A DNA stretch of 64,000 nucleotides from Chitinophaga pinensis (GTDB taxonomy: Bacteria; Bacteroidota; Bacteroidia; NS11-12g; UBA9320), in contig CAMDSC010000002.1 of the NCBI GenBank assembly GCA_945907065.1, forward strand, positions 32,803 to 96,802, read 5' to 3'. The notes beneath the pieces are model-generated. The model ran no database searches. It had not been told where the DNA came from and saw nothing but the letters and a program-made list of their open reading frames with translations. Positions 1,083-64,000 of this stretch are shown here, piece by piece. Position 1 is the stretch's first letter. Every line of letters begins with the position of its first letter. The translations under genes and the position numbers were made by a program.

Positions 1083-3479
1083 CTATTTTACAAATTTTGT
1101 AGACTCAACTTTGCCATCTTGCTCAATACTTACATAGTAAGTACCTTTTGGAAGCGTATTTACAATCATATCGATTGATTTATTTTCATTTGGTGTGGCA
1201 TCATATCTTAAAACTTCAACACCATAAATATCTTTAACTGATATTTTGGCATCTGAAGTAGATAAAGTAACTACCGTCACTTTCGTATCTGCTGGATTTG
1301 GATATACACTTAATGCCTCTTTTACATTATCTCCTTCGTTACCTATCATTTTTTGAGTTGTGCCTCCAATTTCTATAGTTTTACAAATAGTTTTTGTGCA
1401 TTTAGTTTTAGTGTCATAAGCCGTCATACATATATAATATTTTCCTGCAACTTTATAAGTATGATCAACTACTCTGCCTTTATCTCCTAATTTATCTCCC
1501 CAACTCCAACCAAATTCAACTCCAGAAAGATTTGTTCCTTCAACATTGATTTTATTTCCAACAACTTTAAAAGAAAAATCAGGTTTAAAATCGGCACATG
1601 GGTCTGTTGTTTTTCCTTGTACTTCAATTGTAAAGCAAATTGTTTTTTTACATTTACGTTTGGAATCATACACTGTTACACAAATAGTATATTTACCTGC
1701 CTTAGAATAAGTATGGGTAACTGTTCTATCTGTACTTCCCTTCGTATTGTCACCAAAGTTCCACTCCATAGTAGCTCCTTTTCCACCATCCACATCCAAT
1801 TTAATCTTTAAACCATCGGTTTGAAAACTAACCTTTGGGTTAAAATCTTTACAAGGATCTTGAGTTTCTCTTTCTTTAATAACAATTTCTTTGCAAATCT
1901 TTTTGGTGCATTTTGTTTTAGGATCAGTGATGTAAACACATGCAGTATAGGTACCTGGTTTTTTAAAGTCTATTTTAACAATCCTGTCGGTGCTAGTTTG
2001 GCTAGAATTACTAAATATCCATTTATACGTGTAATTAGTGCCACTTTGTGCTTCAAAAACCACAACATTACCATCAATTTTATAATAATAAGTTGGATTA
2101 AAATCTTTGCAAGGATCAGTGTTAGTTCCTGATATTGTTATTTCCCAACATAATGTTTTCTTACAACCTGTTTTAGAATCATAAATTGTTACACATGGTT
2201 TGTAAGTTCCTGGCTTATAAGTATGGTTAGATTGAATACCCGTTCCTGATGTTCCATCTCCATAATTCCAAACATAAGAATATGTGCTGGTAGTTGTACC
2301 AGCTCCCCAGAATGTAACGACTCCATTATCACCAATTTTATATTCGTATCTTGGATTAAAATCAGCACATGGATCTTTCTCTTTAACTGTAATTTCTTTA
2401 CACAATGTTTTGGTACATTTTGTATTTCCACTTGTATATGTAATAGTTACACATGGTTTGTATGTCCCAGGCTTATATTGATGTGTTCCATCTTTAGTAG
2501 TTGATACTGCTGATCCATCACCAAAATTCCAAGAATATGTTAACCCAGTCCCACTCATACCATTATATGTGGCCACACCATTTGCATCAACAGTAAAATC
2601 AAATGTAGGATTGAAGTTTATACATGGATCATTTTCTTTAACAGTTATTGCTTCAAAACAAATAGTTTTTGTGCATTTAGGGTCTGTGCTTGTAATTGTA
2701 ACACATGGCTTGTAGGTGCCAGGACTATACGTATGATAACCAACACGGTCAGTACTAGTTGTTTTATCTCCAAAATCCCAACTATAGGTATAGTTAGTAC
2801 CGGCTGATGCCTCAAAAGTTGCGGTTTTACCATCAGTCCCAAGTTTTATACCACCTGAAAGTGATGCATAAAATTTAGCACATGGATCTTGAACTGTAAC
2901 AGGATCAAAGCATAAAGTTTTTGTACATTTTGGATTTGAACTTGTAATGGTTACACATGGCTTATAGGTACCGGCTGAATATGCATGCGTTCCTGTGCGG
3001 TCGCCACTAGTTGTATTATCGCCAAAACTCCAAGAATAAGTATACGTATTAGACGTGCTATTACTTGCAGCGGCTTCAAAGGTTATTGTTTTTCCGTCCG
3101 TTCCTAATTTAATACCTGCTGATGGGGCAAAACTTGCACAAGGATCCTCAATAGTTATTGTTTTGCAAACCTTAGTGGTACATGGATTGTTGGCATCACG
3201 AGGATTTTTAATAATTAGATAAACACAGGGTGTATAACTACCAGGTTTACTATAATCATGTGTAGGATTTGCATCTTTCGAATTGGCCGTACCATCATTA
3301 AAAACCCATTCTTGAGAAGCTACGGTTCCAGTTGATTTAACACCTAGATAAACTTTTGTTCCAGAAATCTGAACATAAATTTCAGATTTAACACTGTCGC
3401 AATACGTTGGCTTTGTTTGACCGAATAATGTTGAAGATAAGGACAACAAAACAATTAATAAAGTAGTAATTTTTTTCAT
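1083..3479 (-). CDS. Secreted PKD-repeat protein with T9SS sorting domain
   Basis: Secreted or cell-surface protein of 798 residues. A Sec signal peptide (MKKITTLLIVLLSLSSTLFG) is followed by about eight tandem PKD-type beta-sandwich repeats of 80-95 residues. Most repeats carry a W.FGD or WNYGD core and an H.Y..G.Y..CV strand. The repeats share an unusual cysteine pattern: DPC at the start, PCV/ACV/ICV in the middle and KCTKTxC at the end, four cysteines per repeat. The last ~75 residues (LSVYPNPADTKVTV... to ESTKFVK) form a type A T9SS C-terminal sorting domain, so export across the outer membrane by T9SS is expected. It has no enzymatic domain; a structural, adhesive or matrix role is an inference. 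The gene stands alone, with a terminator downstream. Confidence 0.88.
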   Translation of the reverse strand: MKKITTLLIVLLSLSSTLFGQTKPTYCDSVKSEIYVQISGTKVYLGVKSTGTVASQEWVFNDGTANSKDANPTHDYSKPGSYTPCVYLIIKNPRDANNPCTTKVCKTITIEDPCASFAPSAGIKLGTDGKTITFEAAASNSTSNTYTYSWSFGDNTTSGDRTGTHAYSAGTYKPCVTITSSNPKCTKTLCFDPVTVQDPCAKFYASLSGGIKLGTDGKTATFEASAGTNYTYSWDFGDKTTSTDRVGYHTYSPGTYKPCVTITSTDPKCTKTICFEAITVKENDPCINFNPTFDFTVDANGVATYNGMSGTGLTYSWNFGDGSAVSTTKDGTHQYKPGTYKPCVTITYTSGNTKCTKTLCKEITVKEKDPCADFNPRYEYKIGDNGVVTFWGAGTTTSTYSYVWNYGDGTSGTGIQSNHTYKPGTYKPCVTIYDSKTGCKKTLCWEITISGTNTDPCKDFNPTYYYKIDGNVVVFEAQSGTNYTYKWIFSNSSQTSTDRIVKIDFKKPGTYTACVYITDPKTKCTKKICKEIVIKERETQDPCKDFNPKVSFQTDGLKIKLDVDGGKGATMEWNFGDNTKGSTDRTVTHTYSKAGKYTICVTVYDSKRKCKKTICFTIEVQGKTTDPCADFKPDFSFKVVGNKINVEGTNLSGVEFGWSWGDKLGDKGRVVDHTYKVAGKYYICMTAYDTKTKCTKTICKTIEIGGTTQKMIGNEGDNVKEALSVYPNPADTKVTVVTLSTSDAKISVKDIYGVEVLRYDATPNENKSIDMIVNTLPKGTYYVSIEQDGKVESTKFVK

Positions 3480-3599: not shown

Positions 3600-5633
3600 T
3601 TACCAGATAATACTTCTTAATGAAACCGGCATATACATTTTATTTTCTTCCTGCACTTTAAATGCCTCATAAAACTCTTGCATGTTACTCATTGGACCAA
3701 GTATTCTAAACTTAGCTGGCGAGTGAGGATCAGTGGCTAAACGTGTTTTCAATGCCTCTGGCTTAATATTATTTTTCCAACCCTGTGCCCATGAAATAAA
3801 CAGACGTTGCTCGCCGGTTAATCCATTAATTACTGGAGATGGTTTACCATTCAATGATTTCTTATAGGCATAATAAGCCATCGTTAAACCCCCAAGGTCG
3901 GCAATATTTTCACCTAAAGTAAGTTCACCGTTAACTTTTAAAGTGTCGATAGCAACATAACTGCTGAATTGTTTTACCAATAATCCTGTTCTCGCTTTAA
4001 ATTGTTTTTTATCTTCTTCTGTCCACCAGTCTTTCATATTTCCATCACCATCAAATTGGCTACCTTGATCATCAAATCCGTGGGTTAGTTCATGACCAAT
4101 AATAGCACCAATACCTCCATAATTGGCGGCATCATCCGCGGTAGCATCAAAAAACGGTGGTTGCATAATTCCAGCTGGAAATACGATTTCATTTATTGAA
4201 GGATTGTAATATGCATTAACCGTAGGAGTGCTCATCCCCCATTCTGTTCTATCCACCGGTTTTCCAATTTTATCAAGCATTTCATTGTATCCAAATGTAT
4301 TGCTTCGCAATACATTCATGCAATAAGAGTCATCGGCAATTTCCATTTTGCTATGGTCCTTCCACTTGTCGGGATAACCTAATTTTCGAATAATTTTATC
4401 CAACTTGGTCAGCGCCTGTTTTTTTGTGGGTTCGCTCATCCAAGAAAGTTTTTGAATTCTTTCTCTGTATGCAGCAGTAAGATTATCAACCAAAGTATTC
4501 ACTTTTGCTTTGGCATCGGCACTAAAATATTTCTCTACAAAAAGTTTTCCAAGAGGTTCACCCAAGCTGCCATCCGTTTTATCCAAAGCACGTTTCCATC
4601 TTGGCTTCATTTCCTTTGTCCCACGTAAAACAGTTTCAAAAAAAGCAAAATCCTGTTTGTCAACATTGCTGCTTAAATAAGCTGCAGTTGCATTTATCAA
4701 TTGCCAATGCATGTAGGCTTTCCAATCTTCAATACTTACCGATTTAATCATTGTATTAAGTTCAGCAGCAAAATTCAATTGCTCAACAACTACATCTGTA
4801 AATGCCTTACCACCCAGTTCACTGAAATATAAATCCCAGTTAATATTTGAATATTTCTTTTTAAAATCAACGTAAGTTGTTGGGTTGTACTGAGCCTGAA
4901 TATCTCTTCTTTCGACCGAATTCATGGCTTTAGCTGCCAGTTTACTTTCTATAGTGTAAGCAGTTTGAGGATTTACTTTTACTTCAGGATTGGCGGCTGA
5001 AACCATTTCCATCATTTTTGCAATGTGAGCCATGTATTCATTACGAATACTTTCATGCTTTGGGTCAAAGTAATAATCTTTATCGGGTAAATTAAATCCG
5101 CCCTGACTTATAAATTGGGTATTTTTCTTACTGTCTTTTAAGTCAGAAGTTATATAAAAACCAAAAGCTCCCGGAATTCCCATTTTATGAAATCTAGCCA
5201 TTAGCTTTATTAAATCATCAGTAGTTTTTACCAGATTAATTTCATCCTGCATTGGATTTATAGGCGCCAATCCATCCTTTTCAGCTTTTACACTATCCAT
5301 AGCCACTCTGTAAAATGTTCCAACCAATTGGCGGTCAGTTCCTTTTGCAGCGCCTTTATCAGATGAAACTTCGTTAACTATGGAAAGCAACCGATCGAGG
5401 TTTCGGTCTTCTATTTCATTAAAACTACCCCATCGGTTTTCCGTAGCCGGAACCGGATTCTTTTTTAACCAAACACCATTGGCATATTCGTTAAAATCAT
5501 CTCCGGGCAATACAGTTGTATCCATATACTCCTGTTTTATTCCTGCATTTCCACTGGTGTTGCTTTGTTTGCAACTGTCAATTGTTAAACCCAAAACTAT
5601 TGTTGTTAAAATAATTGTGTAATTTTTTTTCAT
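3600..5633 (-). CDS. M13 family zinc metallopeptidase (PepO/neprilysin-like lipoprotein)
   Basis: Peptidase of 677 residues of the neprilysin/endothelin-converting-enzyme family, which cleaves oligopeptides. The zinc motif HELTH is at residues 514-518, and GENIADLGG supplies the third ligand near residue 574. An NAYYNPSINEIVFPAGIMQPPFF block typical of M13 precedes the zinc motif, and the protein ends in Trp as family members do. The N-terminus is a hydrophobic stretch ending in IDSC, a plausible Bacteroidota lipobox, so the enzyme is likely a periplasmic or surface lipoprotein. The length is normal for the family and all catalytic residues are present. A TATATTTG -7 box lies 20 bases upstream of the ATG. 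Confidence 0.93.
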   Translation of the reverse strand: MKKNYTIILTTIVLGLTIDSCKQSNTSGNAGIKQEYMDTTVLPGDDFNEYANGVWLKKNPVPATENRWGSFNEIEDRNLDRLLSIVNEVSSDKGAAKGTDRQLVGTFYRVAMDSVKAEKDGLAPINPMQDEINLVKTTDDLIKLMARFHKMGIPGAFGFYITSDLKDSKKNTQFISQGGFNLPDKDYYFDPKHESIRNEYMAHIAKMMEMVSAANPEVKVNPQTAYTIESKLAAKAMNSVERRDIQAQYNPTTYVDFKKKYSNINWDLYFSELGGKAFTDVVVEQLNFAAELNTMIKSVSIEDWKAYMHWQLINATAAYLSSNVDKQDFAFFETVLRGTKEMKPRWKRALDKTDGSLGEPLGKLFVEKYFSADAKAKVNTLVDNLTAAYRERIQKLSWMSEPTKKQALTKLDKIIRKLGYPDKWKDHSKMEIADDSYCMNVLRSNTFGYNEMLDKIGKPVDRTEWGMSTPTVNAYYNPSINEIVFPAGIMQPPFFDATADDAANYGGIGAIIGHELTHGFDDQGSQFDGDGNMKDWWTEEDKKQFKARTGLLVKQFSSYVAIDTLKVNGELTLGENIADLGGLTMAYYAYKKSLNGKPSPVINGLTGEQRLFISWAQGWKNNIKPEALKTRLATDPHSPAKFRILGPMSNMQEFYEAFKVQEENKMYMPVSLRSIIW

Positions 5634-48710: not shown

Positions 48711-48771
48711 TCGTTATATTGCCTTGACAATTTCGTTGTAAACACCTTGGTTTGTTGTTAAATTATTTACA

Positions 48772-50329
48772 ATGTCAAATAAAGAAAATTTTCTTACCGA
48801 AATAAATACCTCATAAAGTTTCAAGGGTAATTCCATAGTTTTAGGTGCATCCGTTTTAGATGGTATACCTAATGAAAACAGCTTGGTAAAAGCACCTTTG
48901 CAAACCTTTAATTGGCATGGATTAATTGCCGGAGCCACAGGAACCGGAAAAACTAAAACACTGCAAATGATAACTGAAAAATTATCATTGAACGGTGTGC
49001 CAGCTTTGGTAATGGACATTAAAGGAGATTTGAGCGGAATTTCGCAGCCAGGAACCTTAAATCCAAAAATAGAAGATCGTATAAAATTATTGGTGAAGAT
49101 TGGAAACCACGCCAATGCCCTGAGGAATTGTTATCAATTTCAGATGAGCCGGGTGTAAAATTAAAAGCTACAATTAGTGAATTTGGACCGGTATTACTAA
49201 GTAAAATGCTGGAACTTAACGATACCTAAGGCGGGGTAGTTTCATTAGTTTTTAAATATGCAGATGATAATAAACTTCCGCTTTTAGATATTAAAGACTT
49301 TAGAAAAACCCTTCAATTTTTGAGCAATGAGGGAAAAGAAGAAACCGAAAAAGAATACGGATTGATTAGTACCTCCTCAGTTGGAGCTATTCTTAGAAAT
49401 TTAATAGCTTTGGAGGAACAAGGTGCTGATGCTTTTTTTGTTGAACCTACATTTGATGTGGATGACTTACTAAGACTTGACGATAATGGATATGGTTACA
49501 TAAACGTTTTAAGACTCACAGATATTCAAGGAAAACCAAGATTATTTAGCACTTTTATGCTGAGTCTTTTAGATGAAATTTATGAAAGCTTACCTAAAAA
49601 AGGGGATATTGAACAACCTGAATTGGTTATTTTTATCGATGAAGCCCATCTTATTTTTAATGAAGCCTCCAATGCATTACTTGATTAAATTGAAACTATT
49701 ATTAAGCTTATACGAATCAAAGGGGTTGGCATTTTTTTATAACCCAAAATCCGGATGATATTCCTGAATCGGTTTTGGCCCAATTGGGCATGAAAATTCA
49801 ACATGCTTTAAGAGCTTTTACTGCCAAAGACAGAAAAGCTATAAAAATTGCAGCTGAAAATTATCCTCTTTCTGAGTATTATAAAACAGAAGATATCATT
49901 ACTCAATTAGGAATTGGTGAAGCGTTGATAACGGTTTTAAATGAAAATGGGATTCCTACTAGTTTGGTTCATTGCCTGATGAGTCCGCCAAGCACCCGAA
50001 TGGATGTGATTGCAGAAAAAGAGCAACAATATTTGATTTCGAAATCAAAAATAATAGACAAGTATAATAAATCCATCGACCGTGAAAGTGCTTATGAATT
50101 ATTGAACGCCAAGCTTAATGAATTGGATGAAGCTAAAAAAAGACAAGAGGATGTAACACAAGAAGAAAAACAAAGCTCGAATGGGAGGAACGAAAAATCT
50201 GTATTTGAAACTGTGGCCAATAGTTCTGTTACAAAAACAATAGTGAGAGAAGTAGCGAGAGGATTATTGGGCATGCTTGGTATTGGAGGAACGCAAAGAA
50301 GAACATCCAGAAAAACAGGTTGGTTCTAA
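48772..50329 (+). pseudogene. HerA-like ATPase (DUF853/YjgR family) pseudogene
   Basis: Frames joined end to end give a nearly complete helicase-HerA-like C-terminal protein: MSNKENFLTEINTS, Walker A AGATGTGKTKT, MDIKGDLSGIS, LQFLSNEGKEETEKEYG, Walker B LVIFIDEAHLIF, and a C-terminal TSRKTGWF. Five lesions interrupt it: TAA at 48814, a one-base loss near 49090, TAA at 49227, TAA at 49686 and a one-base loss near 49735. Three are substitutions to TAA (two where Gln is expected), so sequencing indels alone cannot explain it. The intact family encodes a P-loop ATPase of poorly known role. The tracked ORFs 48883, 49320 and 49775 are fragments of this one gene. Confidence 0.9.
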
Positions 50330-50368
50330 AATTAATAATAAAAATTTTACTAATTATTGTATAAAAAA

Positions 50369-50419: not shown

Positions 50420-50660
50420 TTATTTCTTTACTTCAAATCTTAAAATAGTGGTTTTACCTGTATCTGTGGAAAGTTTAACAAGATAAATACCAGCTGCAAG
50501 GTTATGATTATCAATACTAATTGTAGAGCTAAAACGTTTACCTTCCATTACTTGACGACCTAACTGATCATAAATAACCATATTAACCATATCTCCCGTG
50601 CTCACATCCAAAGTAAAATTATCTGTGCTTGGATTTGGATATAAGTTGGCCGCAAAAGCA
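50420..50660 (-). other. T9SS C-terminal sorting domain of the giant protein
   Basis: The last ~78 codons read NLYPNPSTDNFTLDV, a VIYDQLGRQVMEGK strand pair and IYLVKLSTDTGKTTILRFEVKK, the type A sorting domain pattern. It directs outer-membrane translocation and cleavage or anchoring. Confidence 0.85.
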
Positions 50661-53600
50661 TTTTTTGTAAATGGATTTATTCCTGCAGTTGGAGTAAGGG
50701 TAACATTATAATTAGCAGGATTTCCATTACAACCATTTACACCTTTTTCTGTTACAGTAACTGTGCCAGTGGCTCCGGTTAAATTCCATTTTACTTGAAT
50801 CAAACTTGTACCATTATTTTGAACCACACCATTAACCGCCTGCCAGTTATAAGTAGAACCAGGAGTTGAAGCAACGCTGTAAACTTGGGTACTTCCATTA
50901 TTAGCTGTAGTTGGTCCGGATATAGTAATAGCCGAAGGATTTGGCAATACCCTAACAAAATAATAGGCTGAATCCTTGCAAGAGAATGGCGTTGTAACAT
51001 TTAGTGTTACTTTATAATTGCCAGCCGCAGCATAAGACCTTGAAGCATTTGGGGTAGATATGGTTGACCCATCTCCCAAATTCCAAAAACTGCTATAGGT
51101 TCCTGCTAAAATTGTAGTGTTGGTATAAACATAACTATTACCATTTAAGCATTGTGTTTCATTGTTATGAGTAAATTCGGCTATAGGACTTGGATGAACG
51201 GTAACTTGTTTTGATATACTATCAATACACCCATCAGCAGATATTACACTTAATCTAAATGTATACGTTCCCGGAGCTGTAAAGTTTTTCACAACATTTA
51301 TGCCTCCAATACTTGACCCGTCTCCTAAATTCCACACACGTGTGATTGAACCTTGGCTAATTGATGAAGCATCACTTAACGAAAATAGATGTCCGTTGTA
51401 ACATTGTGAGTTATTATTAATATTAAAGTTTGCAATAGGTTTTGGACTTACCATTATAGTGCTCATTGCTGAATCTTTGCAACCGTTATTACCTGTCACA
51501 ATTAATTTCACATTATAGGCTCCTGAGCTAGCATAATTCTTAGTTGGATTTGCTGCTGTTGATGTACTTCCATCACCCAAAGCCCAAGCTCTTGTGAATG
51601 TTCCGGATGATATTGTTGAATTATCGGTAAAGACAAAATTATTACCATTTATACATTGACCAATATCATTAACACTAAATGAAGCTTTAGGTGCAGAAAA
51701 CACATTCACTGCCTTGGTTACTGAGCTTACACAACCATTAATAGATTTTACATTTAATATTACATTGTAAGTTCCAGATGCACTGTAGTTATAAGTTGGA
51801 TTAAAGCTATTTGAACTACTTCCATCACCAAATTGCCATTGCGCATCATTTACCCCCGTAGAAGTATTAACAAATACTATGGATTGACCGATACAACGAT
51901 CCGATGCTGTAAAATTAGCAACAGGATTAGCAAAAATTGTAATTGTTCTTGTAATTACTTCTGAGCAGCTATTTGCATTAGTTGCAGTTAATTTTACAGT
52001 GTAAGTTCCTGCTGCTGCATATACTTTGGTAGGTGATGCTATTGTTGATGTACTTGCATCTCCAAAATCCCATAAATATGTGCTACCTCCAATTGATGTA
52101 TTGTTAAATGTAACTAACCCCCCTGCACAAACGTTGGTGGCATTGAAATTTGGAATTGGTTTAGAATAAACCAACACTGAACTTGTTGCTGAATTTACAC
52201 AACCTTTATCAGTGGTTACTGTAAGATTTACTGTATAATTTCCTCCTGAAGCATAGGTGTTGGTTGGATTGGTATTGCTACTAGTATTACCATCACCAAA
52301 TTTCCATTGATTAGTCATGTTTCCAGCTGAAAGTGATGAGGTATTAGTAAACGTTGCCGTTAATCCTACACAGAAACTGGATGGATTAGTAAAGGAAACC
52401 GCTGCTCTTGGATGCACTGTAACCGAATTAGTAGTGGTATCTTTACAACCATTAGGAGAAGTTACTATCAATTTTACACTATAAGTTGATGGACTCGTAT
52501 ATCCTTTTGAAGGATTAGTAGAAGTTGAAGAATTTCCATCTCCAAAAGTCCATTCATGTCCAACAGCACCTGTTGAGTTACTAGTAAATGAAAGATTATC
52601 ATTTGTACAGCCATTATTTACAATAAATGAAGCAACCGGTCTTGGCCAAATAGTAACCGACTTAGTCAATGAATCTTTACAACCATTGCTGCTAACTGAT
52701 ACCAATTTTACGGAATAATTACCAGACACATTGTAAATATTTGTAGGATTCATAAGTGTGCTTGTATTTGAATTACCAAATGTCCAATTATAGGTTGCCC
52801 CATTTGTGGTTGTATTAGTAAAACTCATTAATCCACCGCGACAAATTGGATCAGGAGCGGCAGTAAACGAAACTGAAGGACGAGGATAAACTGTAATTGT
52901 TTTGGTTACAGAATCTTTGCAACTGTTCACAGAAGTTACTACAAGTTTGACGCTATAAGTATTTGCGCTTGCATAAGTATACGTTGGTGAAGTAGCAGCA
53001 CTTGATTTGCCATCACCAAATTGCCAAACATAAGCATTAGCGCCGGTTGATTGGTTTGTAAAGCTTACTGCGGTGCCTAAACATTGGTTTGCTGCAGTAA
53101 ATGCAGGCACAGGCTTAGCATAAATAACAATTGTATTTGTAACAGAATCTTTACAGCCAAAAGTATTAGTAACTACAAGTTTTACATTATAATTTCCTGC
53201 AGCCGTGTAAGTTTTTGATGGACTACCAACCGTTGAAGTTGTTGCATCACCAAAATTCCAAGTATTTAAAGAAGCTCCTGTACTTGTATTATTAAAGGTT
53301 ATACTATTTCCTAAACAAGCATTACTACCCGTAAATAAGGCTTTTGGCGAACTATTAACTGTATATGATTTTGCAACTGAATTAACGCAACCGTTGGAAG
53401 AAGTTGAAGTTAGTGAAACAGTATAAGTTCCCGCTGTAGGATAGGTATAGGTAGGATTGGTTGCAGTAGAACTATTTCCATTTCCAAAATTCCAAGAATA
53501 GGTACTTGCACCTGTTGAAGTATTTGTAAAAGTACTTAAAAATCCATTACAAACATTGGCAGTAGTAAAGTTGGCCACAGGATTCGGATAAATGGTTACA

Positions 53601-56600
53601 GTATTTGCTACTGAATCTAAACATCCATTACTAGAGGTAACTTTCAATTTAACACTATAAGTATTTGCACTGGCATAGCTATTACTTGGATTAACATTTG
53701 AAGAAGTATTACCATCACCAAAATTCCAAGAGTAACTAACGGCTCCGCTCGATGAGTTATTAAAGTTAGTGGTTGTTCCTATACAATTATTGGATACAGA
53801 AAAAACTGCTTTTGGTTTACTAAATACATTAATTGATTTAACTAATGAGTCTTTACAACCAAAACTAGATGTGGCTACTAACTTAGCGTTATAAGTAGCG
53901 GCAACTGAATAGGTTTTAGTAAATGTTGAACTTGTTGTTGCACTCGTTGTACCATCGCCAAACGACCATGCCAATGAAGCATAATTGGTAGAATTATTTG
54001 TGAATGATGTAGCTTCAGGAAAACAATTATTTGTTGCTGTAAAGCTTGGTGTTGATTTAATATTAAATGCAACCGTTTTAGTTATTGAATCTTTAAATCC
54101 TCCTGGTAATGAAATTTTAAATTTAACATTATACGTTCCTGGGGAGTTATAGCGTTTACGAGCATTTTGGACATTAGACTTGGTTCCATCACCAAAATCC
54201 CAACTATATACAAGACCTGAACCAGCACCGCATGCATATACTGTATTATCAGTAAATATTGCAGAATCTCCTTGGCATTTTAATACAAAAGTGAACGAAG
54301 GTAAAGGTGTAGTTGCTACTATAACTGATTTTGTTAAAGAATCCTTACATCCCAAGTTACTAGTACCAACTAAGGTAACGTTATAGGTACCACTTGATGA
54401 ATATGTTTTATTAGGAACACTTGAGGTACTTGTTCCACCATCGCCAAATTTCCACAAATACGATAAAGTACCCGAAGATATATTTGAAGTATTGGATAAA
54501 GGCATTGGATCATTAAAACAATGGTTTGAAGCCGTAAACACAATATTTGGTTTTGCAAGAGTCCTTATTTTTAATGCATTACTTGTTCCATTTGGGCAAC
54601 CTGTATTGCCAGCTAATCTTTGGAAATAAGTTAATCCTGAAACTGCAGGTGATGAATAATTCGATGATGTAGCTCCACTTATGTTATTCCAATTTATACT
54701 ATCGGTAGAGGACTGCCATTGGAATGTATAACTTCCTGGACCTCCTGATGGAGCGGAAATTTGTGTAAATCCAGCTGGGGTGTATCCTGCACAAACAGTT
54801 TGTCCACTTCCTATTGTTCCTCCTGTAATTGGTGAAAATAATTTTATTTTAATACCATTTGTTCCAGCGGTAGGACATGAGCCTGAAGTAACAAGTGAAC
54901 GGTAATAAGTTACACTTGTAACATTGGTTGGAGTAAAGGTAGCTCCTGTTTGTCCCGTGATATTACTCCATGTAGATGAATCAGTTGATTGCTGCCATTG
55001 ATACGTATAGGTTCCAAAAGCTCCTGTTGGTGTTGTAATAAAACTTAATGCAGAGCCTGTTCCATTAAAACAAATGGTTTGGGGGGAACCAATAGTGCCT
55101 GCAGATAATACAGCACCACACTTAATTCTAACGATATTACTAAATGATGGCCCACAACCAACAGTTGTTTTTACAGATCTACGATACCATCTATTTGATG
55201 TAAGTGTGCCTGGTTGATAATCTATACCAGTTGCTCCACTAATATCAGTATATGTTGTACTATCGGTAGAAGATTGCCACTGATAATTATATGAGCCAAT
55301 ACTTCCTGATGCAGCTGAAGAGTTGGTAATTAATGATGGGGCTGTATTAAAACAAATGGTTTGGTTACTTCCTATTACACCAGCATTGAGATTGGTTAAT
55401 ATTGATACCGCTCGTGATCCGCTATCTATACAACCATTATTGGATGTTGAAATAATTTTGACAGTATAAGTGCTACCTGCAGTAGCATAAGTACGATTTA
55501 CAGAGTTACCTGTTCCTGTTCCTCCATCACCAAAACGCCATAAGTTAGCTGTTATTGTTCCTCCTGATACCGTAGATGTTGAAACAAACTTTACGGCGTT
55601 TCCAGCACATGTATCGCTATATGTAAATGTAGGTTTAGGTAAAGGATTCATATTCATCGTAATTGTTGATGAATCATTCATTCTTACATCCTCATTCGAT
55701 AAATTGGAAAATGATTTTACGGTATATGTTCCACCTAATGACGAGTTAAATGTTCCAGTAAAAGTATATGAAGCTGTTGCATTAGAAGCAAGAGGACCAG
55801 TAAATACTTCTGAAATATTTAATGTAGCTCCACCACTAACTACTAATCTCACAGGAATATTGCTTTGACTTTGTAAGCCAAAATTCTTTAAGGTTACAGT
55901 TATAGCAGTTGCCGGTTTTCCACATGTATTATTTACTGAGGTAATGGCACTAACCCCAACATCATTTTGGAAAGCTTCGCTTGAGCCAATTGTAGGAGTG
56001 GTGGCATTTCTCAACAAATTTGTAAAGTCAGTTGTAATTCCTGATATTGGAATAGCTTTACCATAAATCATTCCAGCTTCAGTATTAGCTCCTTTCAAGT
56101 TAAGATTACCAATAGCAGTATTTTGGAATAAATTAGCTGGATTAATTTCGCCAGTTGAAGTACCAGAAGAAATATTTAAGGAGTTTATATCACAATTTGA
56201 ATTAAGTTTCCAATCGCTAAAATTATAATCAGAAATATTCCATAGCCCTATTGGATTGCCTGAAGTGTTGCTTAACAAATTAAAATTACTTGCATTTGGC
56301 TGCCATCCTGTTTGAAAGGTTGTAATAACATTTTGGTTTCCAAAAGCATAATGCTTTCCTGTTCCACCCTTTCTATCATTCATAAAAATGTTGTTTTTAG
56401 AGTTGACAACCGATACGTATGAAGAGGTTACATAATTATTTCCTCTTAAATATCCAAAAGATGAATGAACTCCAGAGGTGGCAGTACCGCCAATATAAAT
56501 TGAATTAAAATATGAATTAACTTGGAAGTTACCGGATACAGCTTGCCAAATTCCTATATACATCGGACTATTTGTTTGTCCCATTCCTAGTGATATTTGG

Positions 56601-59600
56601 TTATTTCGCATTGTAACCACATTTTGTGGTGTTGAAACCAAAATACCTGTAGCAAGGGCTGGCGCATTTATATTGGTATTGGCTGATAAATTAATAATAT
56701 CATAAATTCTGTTATTAGAGATAGTAACATTATTAGCCAAATTTAAAAAAACACCTGTAGCACAAGTAGCTCCATTACCGGTATTATTTGCTCTTAAATT
56801 ATATACTGTATTATTGGCTATAGTTCCACCCAAAGTAGTTCCATAAATTCCTATTCCGCCTATTGCGGTTGGAGGCACTAATGCTGTGTTTGATGAATTA
56901 ACAGAACAATTAAATACAGTATTGTTTGTGATAGTAGGAATAGATGTTCCATTGTTTCCATAAACAATTCCTCTCAAGGTAATTCCTGATTCAACACCAT
57001 AAGAAGTCATATTTGCAACCGTATTACTATCAAACAATACTGTCGGTGCATTTAATGAAGTCATTTGTCCTTGAATTCCTATAATACTGCCGGTTCCCGA
57101 ATTTTGTAGGCTGTTAGCTACTGTTGTTGAACCAACTAAGTTCTTTCTTACTGTGCATTGGCCATTTACAAGGAATATGCATACAAGGTTTTCAGCAACT
57201 CCTAGTACTGGACAATTAATTCCCTGCACTGTATTTCCAATAATATTGCAATTACCACTTGACTGATGGGATAGAATAGAATGTTGAGCTCCCCCTGAAA
57301 GTACAATTGAATTGATATCAGTCGGGTGCCCAATAAGGTTATTTAAAATATTTACACTAACCTGATTTTGGGATATTATTCCCAAAAATGTGTTACCGGT
57401 ACCAATATTAGGTTTTCTGATATTTTGAATAACATTGTTGCTGATTGTAGAAGGATTAACAAATGATCCTGATGTAAATGAAATAGCTCTAAAATCAACA
57501 TTAGCATTGTTTACCCATGGCGCACCACCACAATTTTTAGCCGAACCGCCGATAAAATTCCCAGAGAGAATATGGCCTCCTGAAAAGATTTGAGTTTCAA
57601 TATAAATTGCATACTGAAAAGCAAAGGCCGGAAATGATAAGTTTCGGTAAAAACTATTACCTATAACATTCCAATTATTTCCATTTCCAACATTAGATAA
57701 CCAAACACCATATTGAGAAAAGTTTGTAATTTCATTTCCCGTAATAACATTAGCTGTATTTTCTTTTCCTACATCACCTAAACTATAAATACCGATAGCA
57801 GGTACTCCAATTAAAGGTAAAGTGCCTGTTTGATCATGCCCTAAAACACAATTGGATACTGTATCCCTGCTGTTTCCATTTGTTTTTGTTGATGTACTAA
57901 ATTGAATCATACCTGCAGTGGTAGAAGAATTTGCACTCTCAATTATTAAATTATTTAATCTATTGTCAACAGCCTCATTTATGAATAAAAATACCTGACC
58001 TGCTTTACTTGAATTTCTGAACCTGAGTTTTTTGTCAGTTGATGATCCGTTAAAATCTGGAACTCCAGTAAATTTGATCTGGTCAGACCCATCCAATCGT
58101 ATCATACCTGAACCTACGTTTCCTGAAATAAGTCTTTCAGTGGTTGTTAAAGAATCTGGTCTAATTGTTACACCATAGGTGCCAGAACCATTCTCACCCA
58201 ATTGTGATAATGCAACAGTACCTGGCTCAACAGTGTTGGATGAAATAACTGCAGTGATATTTCCGGCTAATGAAACTGTATTTAGATATTCAAATAATCC
58301 ACCTGTGCCGGTAAGAGTTGGATAAGTTTTGCCAGTTCCAACTCTCAACTTAGTTCCTGCAGCTAAAGATGCTGTTATTCTATAATTAAGTGGAGCAATT
58401 GGATAACTAGATATTGTATTTACATCAGATGCAACAGCATACAGATTATTCGAAATCAGATTACCTGCATTATCTTGAGCAATTATGAAATAATTGATGG
58501 TATCTCCTATAGATACCCCTCCCATTGTTGAATAATTAATTCCAAACGTTCCTGTTGCATTTGTTGATGTTCCACTCAAAGATGTAGCAGCTGATGAATA
58601 CCATGTACCTAATTTACCTTTAGAAAAATAAATTCTTGGCATAGTTGAACCGGTTAAAGGTATCCCAACATTGTCAGTAATTTTAACATTAGTTAATATA
58701 CGTGTTCCACTTAAATTACCGTCATTATGAAATGGATTTAATGTTATTACAGGGGCAATAATATCAGAAGAAAGGGTAAAATTACCAGAATGGGCACCTA
58801 TATCCGATGGGGTTCTACTTGATCGTATGTTTCCATCAAAATCTTCAGTTGTGGTAACATCAGCATCCATGCTTCCATTACCTTCTGCAGGATTTGAACT
58901 GTTAAGATGTAAATCTACTGCAAATGCATTACCTGTAGCATTTATAAATTTAGGATCACTGCTCCCGCTCTTCAAATCAAGGCCTGATGCTAATTGCCAA
59001 CTAGATGCTCCGCTTAAGTTCGTATAATTAATGGATGTGCTTGCTGTTCTTCCACCAGTGCCATTTGCAAACAAGATATTATTATTAGAATATATTAAAT
59101 TACTACTTCCAATCTGCAGTGCATTATTAATACCCGTTGCACTTCCAGTATTGCTCACAGCATTATAAAATATATTATTTTTTATATAAGCCCTAGTTGT
59201 AGTTGTTGAATATGTTTGGGGCATAGTAAATGCTCCTGTTTGTGAACTACCTGACGAAGGGGAGCCACCAACATAAACACTATTATGGTAGTACATACAC
59301 GGCTGATTAGCAAAATTTTGAAAGATACCATGCACAGTATAGGGTCCTGTGAATACTGCTCCAGATGAATCAATTCCCACTCTTACCATATTGTTTTCGT
59401 AGGTTGCATAACCCTGATTATTGTATATACCGTATATACCTGATGCACCTGTTCCACTCACTTTTAAACTATGCACAAAGTTGCGGGAAATAACTGTAGG
59501 GGTTGCCACAGTAGTTCCTGAAAAGAAAAGACCGATAACATTCACCGCATTTGCTGTAGTTGTATTATTATGATTTAAAGAATGAATAATATTTCTGGAT

Positions 59601-62600
59601 ACATTCATAAATGTAGAACTTGCTGAATAACTCAATCCAATGATGGCAGCACTTGAAGTAGTACCTGTTGATATACTCATTGAATTTATACTTGAAATAG
59701 TATTATTTGAAAGAATTGAACCACCTGTACCTGAATTAACTAACAAACCAATAATTTGAACACTCGTTGGTGTAGCGCTAACATATTTTAAATCAGAAAT
59801 TTTATTGTTTGAACATTCTGAATTACCGGTGCTCGATTGCATTATAATTCCCATAATTCCTGTAGCCGCTTGATTAGAGTTAACGTTAGCAGTACTTGAC
59901 AGCAACCCTGAAACAACATTACCCCTAATTTTGTCAACTCCACCGCCAATTTTTGCTAGCCCCACCATACAATGTGCCCCAACGTTATCAAGGTTTTTTA
60001 AATTTTGAATAGTATTGTTCAAAATATTTTGAAGAGTACCAGCTGAACCTACTCCTATTCCTACAACTGCAGAAGATGTGCTAGAACCAGTCGCTCGTGA
60101 GGTAGCCGTCAAATTTCTAACAGTATTACCTATAACATTAAGAGCCATTGAGCCGTTTGATATAGTAATACCTCTTACCGAAGTACTTGTATAAACAGTT
60201 CCTCCCAATGCAGTAAGATTGGCTACTGTGTTATTACTAACCTCCAATTCCTGAGCTATTGTAGCGTTGATTCCTATTAATCCACAATTACCATTGGTTT
60301 GAATACTATTGGCGGTAGTTAAATCCCCAATCGTATTTCCTCGCACGTAAGTATTTCCTCCTTGAGGATTTATTCCAGTAAATAAGGCAGCAAGTGTACC
60401 TGTGCTGGTAAATAAAATATTTCTAATTGTATTGTTTTGAATTACCGTTCCTGCCTCAGTTCCTGCTGAAATTATCATTCCATTGAATGCAGACAAAGCA
60501 GAAAATTGATAAGCCGAACCACCTGCATTAGGAGTGCTTCCTCCTATAAAGTTTCCGCTAATAGTATCATTATTAGATATTGTTCCTGGTGTAAAATTGA
60601 TTACAGTTTGAGCGGCTGCGGCTGCTGTTGAGGCACTTCTATAAAAATGATTCTTAAGTATTCTCCAATTATTTCCAGCACCATTTGCTACTGCCGAAAT
60701 AGCATTTGTTGTAAAATTATAAATCCTACAATCACGTATTGTTATATTATCATTTACTATTAATGGCAATGCAAATGTTGGTGATTGACCTACCGATTCA
60801 ATTCCATTAGTCATTCCCGTACCATTAATAGCTCGGATATAACATCCTGCGATGGTATTATTATCATTACCAGTTACCACTCCAGTAGCGCTTAATAAAA
60901 TTGCTGATGGATTGCCCGAACTAATAGGAGATGCTTCAACTATGCAGTTTTCTATGGTATTATTAATTGCGTCTTTTAAGAGAGTTATTGCAGGATCAGT
61001 AGTACTTGTGGTTTTTATAAATAAGAAAGTATCTGAGGCACTTCCACCAGATGGTATTCCCGTTATTCTTACACGATCTGCACCATTTAGTCTAATCATA
61101 CCAACTAAACCACTTCCAGTTCCTGAAACTGTTCTTCGCGAGGCTGCTGATGGACGAATAGTTAAGGTATAATTAGAACCTCCTATTTCATTCCATTGAT
61201 TTAATGCAATTGCCCCAGTTTCGGTTAAGTCACTTGTTATTTCTACCACTGTATTTCCTTGCAATCCAGATGTATTTATAGCGTTAAATAAGCCAGCTGC
61301 GCCTGAAGTTGTAAGTGCTGTGTATGTTTGACCGGCACCTACTTGAATGGTTGTTGGTAATCCACCAACAATAGTGTAGGTATTGGGTGTTGTTGGGTCG
61401 GTAGTTATAGTATTAACATTGGTTGAGATAGCATACATAGGATTTGATATAATATTAGCTGCACTATCTTGTGCTATTATATAATAACTTATAACATCAT
61501 TAACCGTTAAACCACCTAAAGTAGTTGCATTAATTGTAAAACTCCAATTTCCGTTTTGGCGAGTGCCTGACGATAAAGTACCTGAACCTGAATAATAAGT
61601 GCCTGCACCTTTTTTATAATATACACGTGGTGCATTGGCTGACGAGGAAATAGGTAATCCTACATTATCATAAATATTTACTGTAAATGTCCTGTCACTT
61701 GTAGATACAGTATTTACTAAAGGAACATAATTAATTAATGGTTCTATCAAATCAGCCGATAATGTAAAATTTCCAGCATCAGCTCCTACATCATTTGGTG
61801 ATAATCCGGAGCGAATTTGCCCATCAAAATCATCATTTACTACTGTAACCGTTGGGTCGCCTTGTCCTTCAGCTGGATTTGATGAGGTGAGATGTAAATC
61901 AACTGTCGCACTTGTTCCATTTGGAGCAACAAAACTAGGATTTATTTGAGCACTTTGACCATCAATTAAAGACAAAGCATTCCAACTACCAGAACCAGTT
62001 AAGTTAGCATAACCAGTTGTATTGATGATACCTGTAACACCTCCTGTTAATGGGGTAAAGAATATATTGTAATTTGAAAAAATTCTTGAGTTACTAATAA
62101 TTCTGATACCTGCATTTAAACCTGAACTAGTGTTAGATATGTTATTAAAAAAAATATTATTCCTAACATTTACAAATTCAGGTGCAGTGATTGAAGAAGT
62201 TATCTCGAAGCAAGCAGTATTAGTAGTTCCTGCTGAAGCCCCACTTAAATAAATATTATTGTTATAGTAATTGCTGGATGAAGAAGACGCGTGAACAATA
62301 CCTTTAACATTATATGGTCCATTAAAAGCACTTCCTGTAGAGTCAATACCCAAACGAATCATGTTATTTTGGTAGGTAACATTACCTGTTCCTGCATAAA
62401 TCCCTGTCATAACGCCTATTCCTGAAGTAATCATTTTGAAGCTATGAATATTATTATTATTTACTATTGAGCTATTGCCAAACGTTGTAGTATTCGTCAT
62501 ATAAATACCGTTTATGGTAGATGCAGTTGAGGTATTATAATTATACAACCCATAAATTTTATTACCTGTAATATTTTTGTTTGCTGTAGATGGGGTAATT

Positions 62601-64000
62601 GCAATACCTACAATGGAAGCTAGAGTAGCATTGGTACTTGTACTTTTAGAGGCTAAATTACGAATAATGTTATTTTGAATATAAGTTAAGGTTGATGCAG
62701 TAGTAATACCAATAATTTCAGTAGTTGCTGTTTTTGTAGCATTAAAATTTTCAATCGTATTATTTTTAATGGTAGTTGGTAATGCCGTTTGAAAACTTAT
62801 ACCGGTTATTACCGAACTTGAACCCGTTCCGGTATTATTACCCGCGCAAAAAATACCACTAACTATATTGTTGGTTATATCAGTGGCGGCGGTGCAATAT
62901 ATTCCGTTAACTTGTGTTGCCACTGTTGAATCAGGTGCACTTAAATTTCTTATTTCATTGTTATCAATTACGCCACCTACTACACCTGTATGATAAAGGC
63001 CAATAATGGCGGCAAGGGTGCCAGTACCATTAGCTGGTGCATTATTTATAATGCCATTTATTTTGTTTCCCTTGATACGGGTTATACCGCTGGTATTTCC
63101 AATACCAATCATATCTGGATAGCTAGCAGTGGTATAATTTGTTAATGCTTCAGATAAACCGTTTCCTATAATATTATCTAAGATAAATTGATTATTGGAT
63201 GATGATGATGTTATTATTCCAATAACGGAACACGATGTTGTTGTTCCACCATTTCGAGAATTTGTACTTAAACTTTTTACAATATTGTTGGTAATATACA
63301 AATATCCTGTAGTGGCTGATTGACCTGAATTAACAATCCCCCTTACAGCACCTGTGGTACCTATATTATTCTGAAAAATATTGGCAACAGTATTATAACT
63401 AATTATCATATCATTGGGCGATGTGGTAGCAATTCCAATCATAGGATTATTACTAAGTGATGAAATACTATTTGCAGTAGTGGCATGCCCAATAGTATTT
63501 CCCTTACCTGCTGCTCCACCAACTATCGCTGATCCTCCTGTAATATTTATACCTTGAAAGGTTGCGGTTTGAGTTGTATTTGTAAAACTAATATTTTGTA
63601 TCACATTACCCTGAACCAGAGTAGGAGTACCAAGGCTACAGGTAATTCTTATACCAGCCATAGTAGCTGATGTAGAGCTATTAACGAATGAAGACCCTCC
63701 ACAATTTACGTCAGTACCTCCTATATAATTATTGCTAATAATATTGGCAGTAGAATTAGAGGTAGTTCCCGGCAAAAAATTAATGGCGACCCAGTTAGTA
63801 CTTGTCATACCAGCGGCCGTTGCACTATCATAAAAACTATTGTTAGTTATGGTCCATTTTTCACCATTACCCAAAGAATTTACAACGTTTATTCCAAAAT
63901 TAAATATTGAACGAAATTCATTATCTGTTATCGAAATATTATCATTTTGTATAAGGAGGTTAGATGTAGGAGAAGAGGTAATCGCAGAATATAAAAATGT
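50420..64000 (-). CDS. Giant modular surface protein (beta-helix, CARDB, Ig-like and PKD domains, T9SS), 5'-truncated
   Basis: The track starts at a TTG (63874), but the frame stays open to the window edge, so at least 4526 residues are encoded and the true N-terminus is missing. From the N-terminal side: three ~1000-residue modules of right-handed beta-helix repeats (IGNTI, ITNNIV, NNTI turns) with DxG-type linkers; a CARDB-like domain (NDVGVSAITSVNNTCG...); a PKD domain; three Ig-like repeats (IGSNQTICF...YQWQSSTDS); about fifteen further PKD domains (W.FGDG..S); a final beta-sandwich; and a type A T9SS sorting domain (AANLYPNPSTDNFTL... ILRFEVKK). A surface adhesin or matrix scaffold is likely. 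The region has no internal lesion. Confidence 0.93.
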   Translation of the reverse strand, partial: TFLYSAITSSPTSNLLIQNDNISITDNEFRSIFNFGINVVNSLGNGEKWTITNNSFYDSATAAGMTSTNWVAINFLPGTTSNSTANIISNNYIGGTDVNCGGSSFVNSSTSATMAGIRITCSLGTPTLVQGNVIQNISFTNTTQTATFQGINITGGSAIVGGAAGKGNTIGHATTANSISSLSNNPMIGIATTSPNDMIISYNTVANIFQNNIGTTGAVRGIVNSGQSATTGYLYITNNIVKSLSTNSRNGGTTTSCSVIGIITSSSSNNQFILDNIIGNGLSEALTNYTTASYPDMIGIGNTSGITRIKGNKINGIINNAPANGTGTLAAIIGLYHTGVVGGVIDNNEIRNLSAPDSTVATQVNGIYCTAATDITNNIVSGIFCAGNNTGTGSSSVITGISFQTALPTTIKNNTIENFNATKTATTEIIGITTASTLTYIQNNIIRNLASKSTSTNATLASIVGIAITPSTANKNITGNKIYGLYNYNTSTASTINGIYMTNTTTFGNSSIVNNNNIHSFKMITSGIGVMTGIYAGTGNVTYQNNMIRLGIDSTGSAFNGPYNVKGIVHASSSSSNYYNNNIYLSGASAGTTNTACFEITSSITAPEFVNVRNNIFFNNISNTSSGLNAGIRIISNSRIFSNYNIFFTPLTGGVTGIINTTGYANLTGSGSWNALSLIDGQSAQINPSFVAPNGTSATVDLHLTSSNPAEGQGDPTVTVVNDDFDGQIRSGLSPNDVGADAGNFTLSADLIEPLINYVPLVNTVSTSDRTFTVNIYDNVGLPISSSANAPRVYYKKGAGTYYSGSGTLSSGTRQNGNWSFTINATTLGGLTVNDVISYYIIAQDSAANIISNPMYAISTNVNTITTDPTTPNTYTIVGGLPTTIQVGAGQTYTALTTSGAAGLFNAINTSGLQGNTVVEITSDLTETGAIALNQWNEIGGSNYTLTIRPSAASRRTVSGTGSGLVGMIRLNGADRVRITGIPSGGSASDTFLFIKTTSTTDPAITLLKDAINNTIENCIVEASPISSGNPSAILLSATGVVTGNDNNTIAGCYIRAINGTGMTNGIESVGQSPTFALPLIVNDNITIRDCRIYNFTTNAISAVANGAGNNWRILKNHFYRSASTAAAAAQTVINFTPGTISNNDTISGNFIGGSTPNAGGSAYQFSALSAFNGMIISAGTEAGTVIQNNTIRNILFTSTGTLAALFTGINPQGGNTYVRGNTIGDLTTANSIQTNGNCGLIGINATIAQELEVSNNTVANLTALGGTVYTSTSVRGITISNGSMALNVIGNTVRNLTATSRATGSSTSSAVVGIGVGSAGTLQNILNNTIQNLKNLDNVGAHCMVGLAKIGGGVDKIRGNVVSGLLSSTANVNSNQAATGIMGIIMQSSTGNSECSNNKISDLKYVSATPTSVQIIGLLVNSGTGGSILSNNTISSINSMSISTGTTSSAAIIGLSYSASSTFMNVSRNIIHSLNHNNTTTANAVNVIGLFFSGTTVATPTVISRNFVHSLKVSGTGASGIYGIYNNQGYATYENNMVRVGIDSSGAVFTGPYTVHGIFQNFANQPCMYYHNSVYVGGSPSSGSSQTGAFTMPQTYSTTTTRAYIKNNIFYNAVSNTGSATGINNALQIGSSNLIYSNNNILFANGTGGRTASTSINYTNLSGASSWQLASGLDLKSGSSDPKFINATGNAFAVDLHLNSSNPAEGNGSMDADVTTTEDFDGNIRSSRTPSDIGAHSGNFTLSSDIIAPVITLNPFHNDGNLSGTRILTNVKITDNVGIPLTGSTMPRIYFSKGKLGTWYSSAATSLSGTSTNATGTFGINYSTMGGVSIGDTINYFIIAQDNAGNLISNNLYAVASDVNTISSYPIAPLNYRITASLAAGTKLRVGTGKTYPTLTGTGGLFEYLNTVSLAGNITAVISSNTVEPGTVALSQLGENGSGTYGVTIRPDSLTTTERLISGNVGSGMIRLDGSDQIKFTGVPDFNGSSTDKKLRFRNSSKAGQVFLFINEAVDNRLNNLIIESANSSTTAGMIQFSTSTKTNGNSRDTVSNCVLGHDQTGTLPLIGVPAIGIYSLGDVGKENTANVITGNEITNFSQYGVWLSNVGNGNNWNVIGNSFYRNLSFPAFAFQYAIYIETQIFSGGHILSGNFIGGSAKNCGGAPWVNNANVDFRAISFTSGSFVNPSTISNNVIQNIRKPNIGTGNTFLGIISQNQVSVNILNNLIGHPTDINSIVLSGGAQHSILSHQSSGNCNIIGNTVQGINCPVLGVAENLVCIFLVNGQCTVRKNLVGSTTVANSLQNSGTGSIIGIQGQMTSLNAPTVLFDSNTVANMTSYGVESGITLRGIVYGNNGTSIPTITNNTVFNCSVNSSNTALVPPTAIGGIGIYGTTLGGTIANNTVYNLRANNTGNGATCATGVFLNLANNVTISNNRIYDIINLSANTNINAPALATGILVSTPQNVVTMRNNQISLGMGQTNSPMYIGIWQAVSGNFQVNSYFNSIYIGGTATSGVHSSFGYLRGNNYVTSSYVSVVNSKNNIFMNDRKGGTGKHYAFGNQNVITTFQTGWQPNASNFNLLSNTSGNPIGLWNISDYNFSDWKLNSNCDINSLNISSGTSTGEINPANLFQNTAIGNLNLKGANTEAGMIYGKAIPISGITTDFTNLLRNATTPTIGSSEAFQNDVGVSAITSVNNTCGKPATAITVTLKNFGLQSQSNIPVRLVVSGGATLNISEVFTGPLASNATASYTFTGTFNSSLGGTYTVKSFSNLSNEDVRMNDSSTITMNMNPLPKPTFTYSDTCAGNAVKFVSTSTVSGGTITANLWRFGDGGTGTGNSVNRTYATAGSTYTVKIISTSNNGCIDSGSRAVSILTNLNAGVIGSNQTICFNTAPSLITNSSAASGSIGSYNYQWQSSTDSTTYTDISGATGIDYQPGTLTSNRWYRRSVKTTVGCGPSFSNIVRIKCGAVLSAGTIGSPQTICFNGTGSALSFITTPTGAFGTYTYQWQQSTDSSTWSNITGQTGATFTPTNVTSVTYYRSLVTSGSCPTAGTNGIKIKLFSPITGGTIGSGQTVCAGYTPAGFTQISAPSGGPGSYTFQWQSSTDSINWNNISGATSSNYSSPAVSGLTYFQRLAGNTGCPNGTSNALKIRTLAKPNIVFTASNHCFNDPMPLSNTSNISSGTLSYLWKFGDGGTSTSSVPNKTYSSSGTYNVTLVGTSNLGCKDSLTKSVIVATTPLPSFTFVLKCQGDSAIFTDNTVYACGAGSGLVYSWDFGDGTKSNVQNARKRYNSPGTYNVKFKISLPGGFKDSITKTVAFNIKSTPSFTATNNCFPEATSFTNNSTNYASLAWSFGDGTTSATTSSTFTKTYSVAATYNAKLVATSSFGCKDSLVKSINVFSKPKAVFSVSNNCIGTTTNFNNSSSGAVSYSWNFGDGNTSSNVNPSNSYASANTYSVKLKVTSSNGCLDSVANTVTIYPNPVANFTTANVCNGFLSTFTNTSTGASTYSWNFGNGNSSTATNPTYTYPTAGTYTVSLTSTSSNGCVNSVAKSYTVNSSPKALFTGSNACLGNSITFNNTSTGASLNTWNFGDATTSTVGSPSKTYTAAGNYNVKLVVTNTFGCKDSVTNTIVIYAKPVPAFTAANQCLGTAVSFTNQSTGANAYVWQFGDGKSSAATSPTYTYASANTYSVKLVVTSVNSCKDSVTKTITVYPRPSVSFTAAPDPICRGGLMSFTNTTTNGATYNWTFGNSNTSTLMNPTNIYNVSGNYSVKLVSVSSNGCKDSLTKSVTIWPRPVASFIVNNGCTNDNLSFTSNSTGAVGHEWTFGDGNSSTSTNPSKGYTSPSTYSVKLIVTSPNGCKDTTTNSVTVHPRAAVSFTNPSSFCVGLTATFTNTSSLSAGNMTNQWKFGDGNTSSNTNPTNTYASGGNYTVNLTVTTDKGCVNSATSSVLVYSKPIPNFNATNVCAGGLVTFNNTSIGGSTYLWDFGDASTSTIASPTKVYAAAGTYTVKLTATNANSCSEVITRTITIFANPVANFTASDRCIGQSIVFVNTSTGVNDAQWQFGDGSSSNSFNPTYNYSASGTYNVILNVKSINGCVSSVTKAVNVFSAPKASFSVNDIGQCINGNNFVFTDNSTISSGTFTRAWALGDGSTSTAANPTKNYASSGAYNVKLIVTGNNGCKDSAMSTIMVSPKPIANFNINNNSQCYNGHLFSLSDASSISQGSITRVWNLGDGSSIGGINVVKNFTAPGTYTFRLSVISADGCIDSISKQVTVHPSPIAEFTHNNETQCLNGNSYVYTNTTILAGTYSSFWNLGDGSTISTPNASRSYAAAGNYKVTLNVTTPFSCKDSAYYFVRVLPNPSAITISGPTTANNGSTQVYSVASTPGSTYNWQAVNGVVQNNGTSLIQVKWNLTGATGTVTVTEKGVNGCNGNPANYNVTLTPTAGINPFTKNAFAANLYPNPSTDNFTLDVSTGDMVNMVIYDQLGRQVMEGKRFSSTISIDNHNLAAGIYLVKLSTDTGKTTILRFEVKK
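50960..54550 (-). repeat. Array of about fifteen tandem PKD domains
   Basis: Repeats of about 80 residues, each opening with a proline-anchored strand and NxC (KPVPAFTAANQCLG, NPVANFTTANVCNG, RPVASFIVNNGCTN) and carrying W.FGDG..S, TY..AG.Y.V.L and a cysteine in NGCKDS. They diverge in sequence, so recent duplication is not obvious at DNA level. One more PKD copy lies at about 55410-55650, ahead of three Ig-like repeats. Confidence 0.8.
54550..55410 (-). repeat. Three tandem Ig-like repeats in the giant protein
   Basis: Each ~90-residue unit opens with GxIGSxQTxC, contains YQWQxSTDSxxWxxIxGAT and ends YxRxxxxxxGC/SC. This Ig-like repeat is common in large Bacteroidota surface proteins. Confidence 0.75.
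56000..64000 (-). repeat. Three long beta-helix modules of about 1000 residues
   Basis: Modules open with a VGxGxTYxxLT...GLFxxxN segment at about 61350 and 58335 and consist of dozens of short NNTI/GNxI/ISNNxI turns. The first two close with DFDGxIRSxxxPxDxGAxxGNFTLSxDxIxP at about 61800 and 58800. The period is about 3000 bases. The most N-terminal module is cut by the window edge. The unit is a protein-level repeat and has diverged. Confidence 0.75.

Follow-up and report, generated by a model that had tools for sequence, protein, structure and literature searches.

A beta-helix head apparently exchanged onto a conserved PKD and Ig-like stalk in a giant, probably T9SS-exported protein of Bacteroidota

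Fibrillar adhesins follow a plan in which a stalk projects a distal adhesive region, and a known adhesive domain is likewise missing from most predicted members whose stalk domains are known (PMC9210967). Among T9SS substrates, type A sorting domains give static anchoring or release, and SprB, a large T9SS adhesin of Flavobacterium johnsoniae that we compare by description, carries a type B sorting domain and uses the SprF shuttle (PMC12618676). RemA, a gliding adhesin of the same organism (PDB 8gl6), has 1,436 residues and combines a type A T9SS domain with Ig-like domains and a lectin domain. GhpA of Aureispira sp. CCB-QB1 (PDB 9flp and others) is a giant of 5,898 residues whose Ig/PKD-like domains form a long string; it makes up T9SS-secreted, heptameric grappling hooks (PMC11205867; PMC13319060). 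In lactic acid bacteria, Giant1-4 of Apilactobacillus kunkeei are extracellular giants that combine a beta-solenoid at the N-terminus with a long rod, and the solenoid sequence of Giant1-3 has been exchanged between genera (PMC12863079).

The protein described here resembles each of these systems in part, and the literature searched held no published description of its architecture. Like the fibrillar adhesins it is large, with a repeated beta-sandwich stalk between an anchor and an unannotated distal part; its 16 PKD and three Ig-like domains are the tandem stalk domains, lying between those two parts, by which a fibrillar adhesin is recognized. It differs from them in its predicted T9SS export and its three beta-helix modules of 0.8–1 thousand residues, and Pfam and NCBIfam profiles recognized no binding or adhesive domain in the head. 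It shares with RemA a type A sorting domain and homologous Ig-like domains, the match being confined to this part. The A. kunkeei giants are likened to it by architecture; they differ in the alpha-helical rod of Giant1-3 and in their C-terminal domains. A gliding adhesin of the SprB type was rejected, as the sorting domain is type A rather than B and the flanking genes, anmK and a broken HerA-like gene, include no linked SprF.

The window analyzed is a stretch of 64,000 nucleotides (G000:C2:32803-96802) from a 2.70-Mb assembly, G000, that comprises 63 contigs and is 99.9% complete; the giant gene has been seen in this single assembly. It lies on the minus strand, as do all features of the protein given below, and window positions 50420-64000 encode residues 504-5029 of 5029. 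An earlier note on this DNA had described a frame unbroken to the window edge and a product of at least 4526 residues. Both statements hold: in the source assembly beyond position 64000 the frame continues intact to an ATG 1,509 nt past the edge, at C2:98311, and the whole gene (C2:83222-98311) encodes 5,029 aa. Given the base composition, the probability of an equally long frame by chance is about 10^-169. The HerA-like helicase gene that adjoins it (window 48770-50330, plus strand) has HerA_C pieces in three frames and extra in-frame stops, and is either a pseudogene or an assembly error. We found no shared operon partner of the giant gene, and its flanking genes vary from genome to genome. 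A gene block kept near it in G000 and in the congener G002 (L003:9881-14265 and L019:5914-9699) lies on the opposite side, inverted relative to the gene.

The N-terminal part outside the window comprises a signal-peptide-like start (by eye, a basic start, a hydrophobic stretch and KAQ), a GEVED domain (PF20009, E 7e-14) and a first CARDB-like domain (CARDB-1, residues 211-315). Three beta-helix modules, M1, M2 and M3, follow and are succeeded by a second CARDB-like domain (CARDB-2, 55643-55966, residues 3182-3289), which was assigned from a sub-threshold profile match and from its likeness to CARDB-1 (32% identity, E 1.5e-10). The stalk opens with PKD 1 (55394-55642, residues 3290-3372) and continues with three Ig-like domains related to those of RemA (54554-55393, residues 3373-3652) and PKD 2-16 (50942-54553, residues 3653-4856). 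A linker that is Ig-like by eye and is kept in congeners (50645-50941, residues 4857-4955) leads to the type A T9SS C-terminal sorting domain (50423-50644, residues 4956-5029). This last domain scored above cut-off with both PF18962 and TIGR04183, and the 16 PKD stretches were found twice, with Pfam PKD_4 and with a custom HMM (residues 3290-3372 and 3653-4856). The sorting domain and the arrangement of about 16 PKD domains as 1 + 15 had both been read correctly from the sequence alone in the earlier note. The CARDB-like domain that it named scores below threshold in this protein (17.1 bits against a PF07705 cut-off of 22.7) and above threshold in one family member. AlphaFold2 modeled residues 3182-3985 as an all-beta string with a mean pLDDT of 81.7 and a pTM of 0.31, the value expected of a flexible string. 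NCBIfam matches to polycystin and Rib/alpha scored below cut-off, and these identities were rejected.

The head modules open at residues 324, 1384 and approximately 2390. M1 (61358-64000) covers residues 324-1384 (1,061 aa, the first ~180 beyond the window edge), M2 with its closing Ig-like domain (58340-61360) covers residues 1384-2390 (1,007 aa), and M3 (55967-58342) covers residues 2390-3181 (792 aa). Self-BLAST of the entire protein returned the self match only, and the modules were therefore compared as pieces, M1 and M2 reaching 47% identity across 300 aa. These two modules share the matching opening and closing motifs attributed earlier to all three; M3, the shortest, has no closing Ig-like domain. 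Pfam profiles gave no beta-helix match in M1, M2 or M3. I/V autocorrelation in the head sequence was not higher than in shuffles, so the coil periodicity rests on the AlphaFold model of M2 (m5a9e9903bb44), which displays stacked coils of three strands with a repeat of ~35 residues at moderate confidence (pTM 0.71, mean pLDDT 66.9). Foldseek searches with this model returned parallel beta-helix lyases, glycosidases and tailspikes with weak E values of 1e-3 to 0.1, and the head regions of relatives match PF13229 Beta_helix above cut-off. Together the model and these matches support the beta-helix fold that had been proposed, and we conclude with moderate confidence that M2 is predicted to form a right-handed parallel beta-helix with three-strand coils.

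A search for relatives with the same architecture, as had been suggested, found the stalk in two congeners, one g2 genome and five g3 genomes. The congeners G001 and G002 encode proteins of 4,957 and 4,960 aa, respectively. Across G000, G001 and G002 the last ~1,740 aa, from PKD 1 to the C-terminus, align one to one with the same 16 PKDs, and identity between the G000 stalk and the other two is 55-76% per 150-residue piece. For all 16 PKD units in the G000 stalk the best match is the G001 unit at the same position (52-83%); the array therefore appears to be old, and this position-by-position correspondence rules out its recent expansion. The g2 and g3 stalks are 36-44% identical to that of G000 across the Ig-like part and have 18 PKDs each, so that the stalk spans three genera with a fixed PKD number of 16 or 18. 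Four further congener genomes gave no strong stalk match. The same family contains other giant frames with Ig-like domains, at least 3,559, 4,842 and 4,838 aa long (L046, G011:C6; L047, G022:C242; L048, G015:C13), which apparently represent a second giant type.

Toward the N-terminus this correspondence ends abruptly. At residue 3290/3291 (window 55637-55642), the border of the first PKD, identity to G001 and G002 jumps from ~23% to ~60%; 40-residue windows against both congeners give about 12-38% as far as residue 3290 and 42-88% beyond. No such step is seen between G001 and G002. The N-terminal ~3,200 aa of G000 cannot be aligned one to one with either congener, whose heads consist of one long first module of other sequence and four modules at a spacing of about 560-580 aa; the g3 heads are of the short module kind. 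Searching the G000 genome for a head of the G001 type gave only weak matches, to another protein.

Of 396 genomes sampled across the phylum, 26 besides G000 carry modules of the G000 type, at 30-47% identity, and 23 of these 26 lie outside the class. We read seven of the proteins that carry them: they have 1,235-3,878 aa (two are cut by the end of the examined DNA stretch) and one to three modules each, with no PKD match in any. A tree built from the module openings places those of G000 among arrays of other Bacteroidota classes (SH-aLRT 97), two rows on that side, ZH15 and Jr7, being metagenome-assembled Bacteroidota that may or may not be of another class than the window. A single clade for all own-family modules was rejected (AU p 0.009). 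Since the modules group with those of other classes and the own-family clade is rejected, a head type widespread elsewhere in the phylum sits on the family stalk. Head and stalk have equal base and codon composition (GC3 0.21 vs 0.19), which leaves a recent transfer unsupported by composition and indicates that any exchange was old or came from a similar donor. The exchange may have taken place in the G000 lineage rather than in the ancestor of G001 and G002; its direction is unpolarized within the genus, where the remaining four genomes lack a strong match to the stalk.

This phylogenetic conflict bears on the proposal in the earlier note that the protein was assembled by duplication of large modules, which is not well supported in that form: the PKD array appears old, and in the trees M1 tends toward the first, and M2 and M3 toward the second, modules of arrays in other parts of the phylum. 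Against that trend, a single clade of M1, M2 and M3 was not rejected (AU p 0.147), and M1 and M2 have closing domains that pair as sisters (SH-aLRT 89). Three separate acquisitions are by the same AU value undemonstrated. On these comparisons, the joining of a foreign-type head to a family stalk is the more striking event. The remainder of the earlier interpretation, namely a T9SS substrate of beta-helix and PKD architecture with a fibre-like adhesin role, is supported or plausible.

We consider the protein to be, with fair probability, a T9SS-exported fibre of the fibrillar-adhesin kind with a conserved stalk and an exchangeable head. The G000 genome encodes SprA (PF14349, E 5e-159, at C22) and, in only 2.7 Mb, about 137 T9SS sorting domains of type A that score above cut-off. 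The type A domain would export the protein through SprA, after which it would either stay on the outer surface or be released from it; its location is probably the cell surface. If the C-terminus sits at the cell, the PKD, Ig-like and PKD domains in their 1-3-15 order would form a stalk of conserved length that carries the beta-helix head outward. With about 20 stalk domains at a general estimate of 3.5-4 nm each, a fibre of about 70-80 nm would be expected. The GEVED domain, CARDB-like domain and three beta-helix modules would constitute the distal head that meets a target, for which a polysaccharide or a cell surface is the likeliest candidate. Swapping of the head as a block at the border of the first PKD would provide new binding and keep anchor and reach. 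Counting against an adhesin are the enzymatic roles that beta-helices can have, the moderate confidence of the M2 model and its best Foldseek E value of 1e-3.

Those enzymatic roles raise the possibility of a cell-bound enzyme that degrades or modifies polysaccharide, in which the beta-helix modules would be catalytic, as lyase or glycosidase, and the stalk would merely display them. The best Foldseek matches of M2 are indeed PL6 alginate lyases, GH87, GH110 and tailspike glycosidases, but at E 1e-3 or worse and with rmsd mostly above 10 Å they identify the fold class only, and neither Pfam nor NCBIfam detects an enzyme family in the giant protein; we regard a catalytic head as improbable. Release is equally a property of type A sorting domains (PMC12618676), and the protein is repetitive and rich in Asn, Ser and Thr, as might suit a shed scaffold that builds extracellular or biofilm material instead of a cell-bound fibre. 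A stalk length fixed per genus would be expected of a cell-bound spacer more than of a free polymer, and we give the scaffold little credence. That two genes were misjoined in the contig might be suspected from the single assembly and its 63 contigs. The frame is open across the junction, however, the junction coincides with a domain border, its two sides do not differ in composition, a CARDB-like domain precedes PKD 1 in relatives as in G000, and total protein length agrees with the congeners; a chimera is very improbable.

A further alternative is a grappling-hook-like fibre, in which several copies would bundle into a filament like the GhpA heptamer and catch other cells. GhpA is the best match of the stalk in fold, among solved structures, and in sequence: its neck and base were the top two Foldseek hits of the stalk model (E 7e-26 and 3e-22), with identities of 17-22% compared to about 8-14% for other Ig strings, and its sequence scores 310 bits against the stalk of G000 and 305 against one from g3. 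The match is somewhat specific, as a second T9SS protein with 7 PKD domains in the window (1083-3479, minus strand, 798 aa) finds no GhpA. GhpA and the giant described here are, moreover, both longer than 5,000 aa and come from T9SS bacteria. However, 25-84 bits of the GhpA alignments reflect composition bias, their register shifts, GhpA is absent among the matches of a profile of the CARDB-PKD-Ig part, and the G000 head has no match to GhpA at E 1. We regard the two proteins as alike only in their strings of domains, and a hook of this kind as unlikely. Killing by a T6SS in the manner of ixotrophy was rejected: VipB was not found in G000, nor was a Bacteroidota-type TssC in a search run without a positive control, and a sheath match was below cut-off. 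This phage-sheath-like match (G000:C16:12284-12532, 29 vs 31.4 bits) could belong to a contractile system.

The fibre with a conserved stalk and an exchangeable head thus remains our preferred reading. A broader one, that the protein belongs to a family of giant T9SS fibres with a fixed-number stalk, a head cassette exchanged whole among distant Bacteroidota and a side-by-side, hook-like assembly, is a long shot. If the preferred reading is right, orthologous 16-PKD stalks with two different heads within one genus would constitute a natural experiment, in which one could ask what each head targets and whether whole-head exchange retargets giant adhesins at constant stalk length. It would also make more domain strings available for comparison with the grappling hook protein GhpA.
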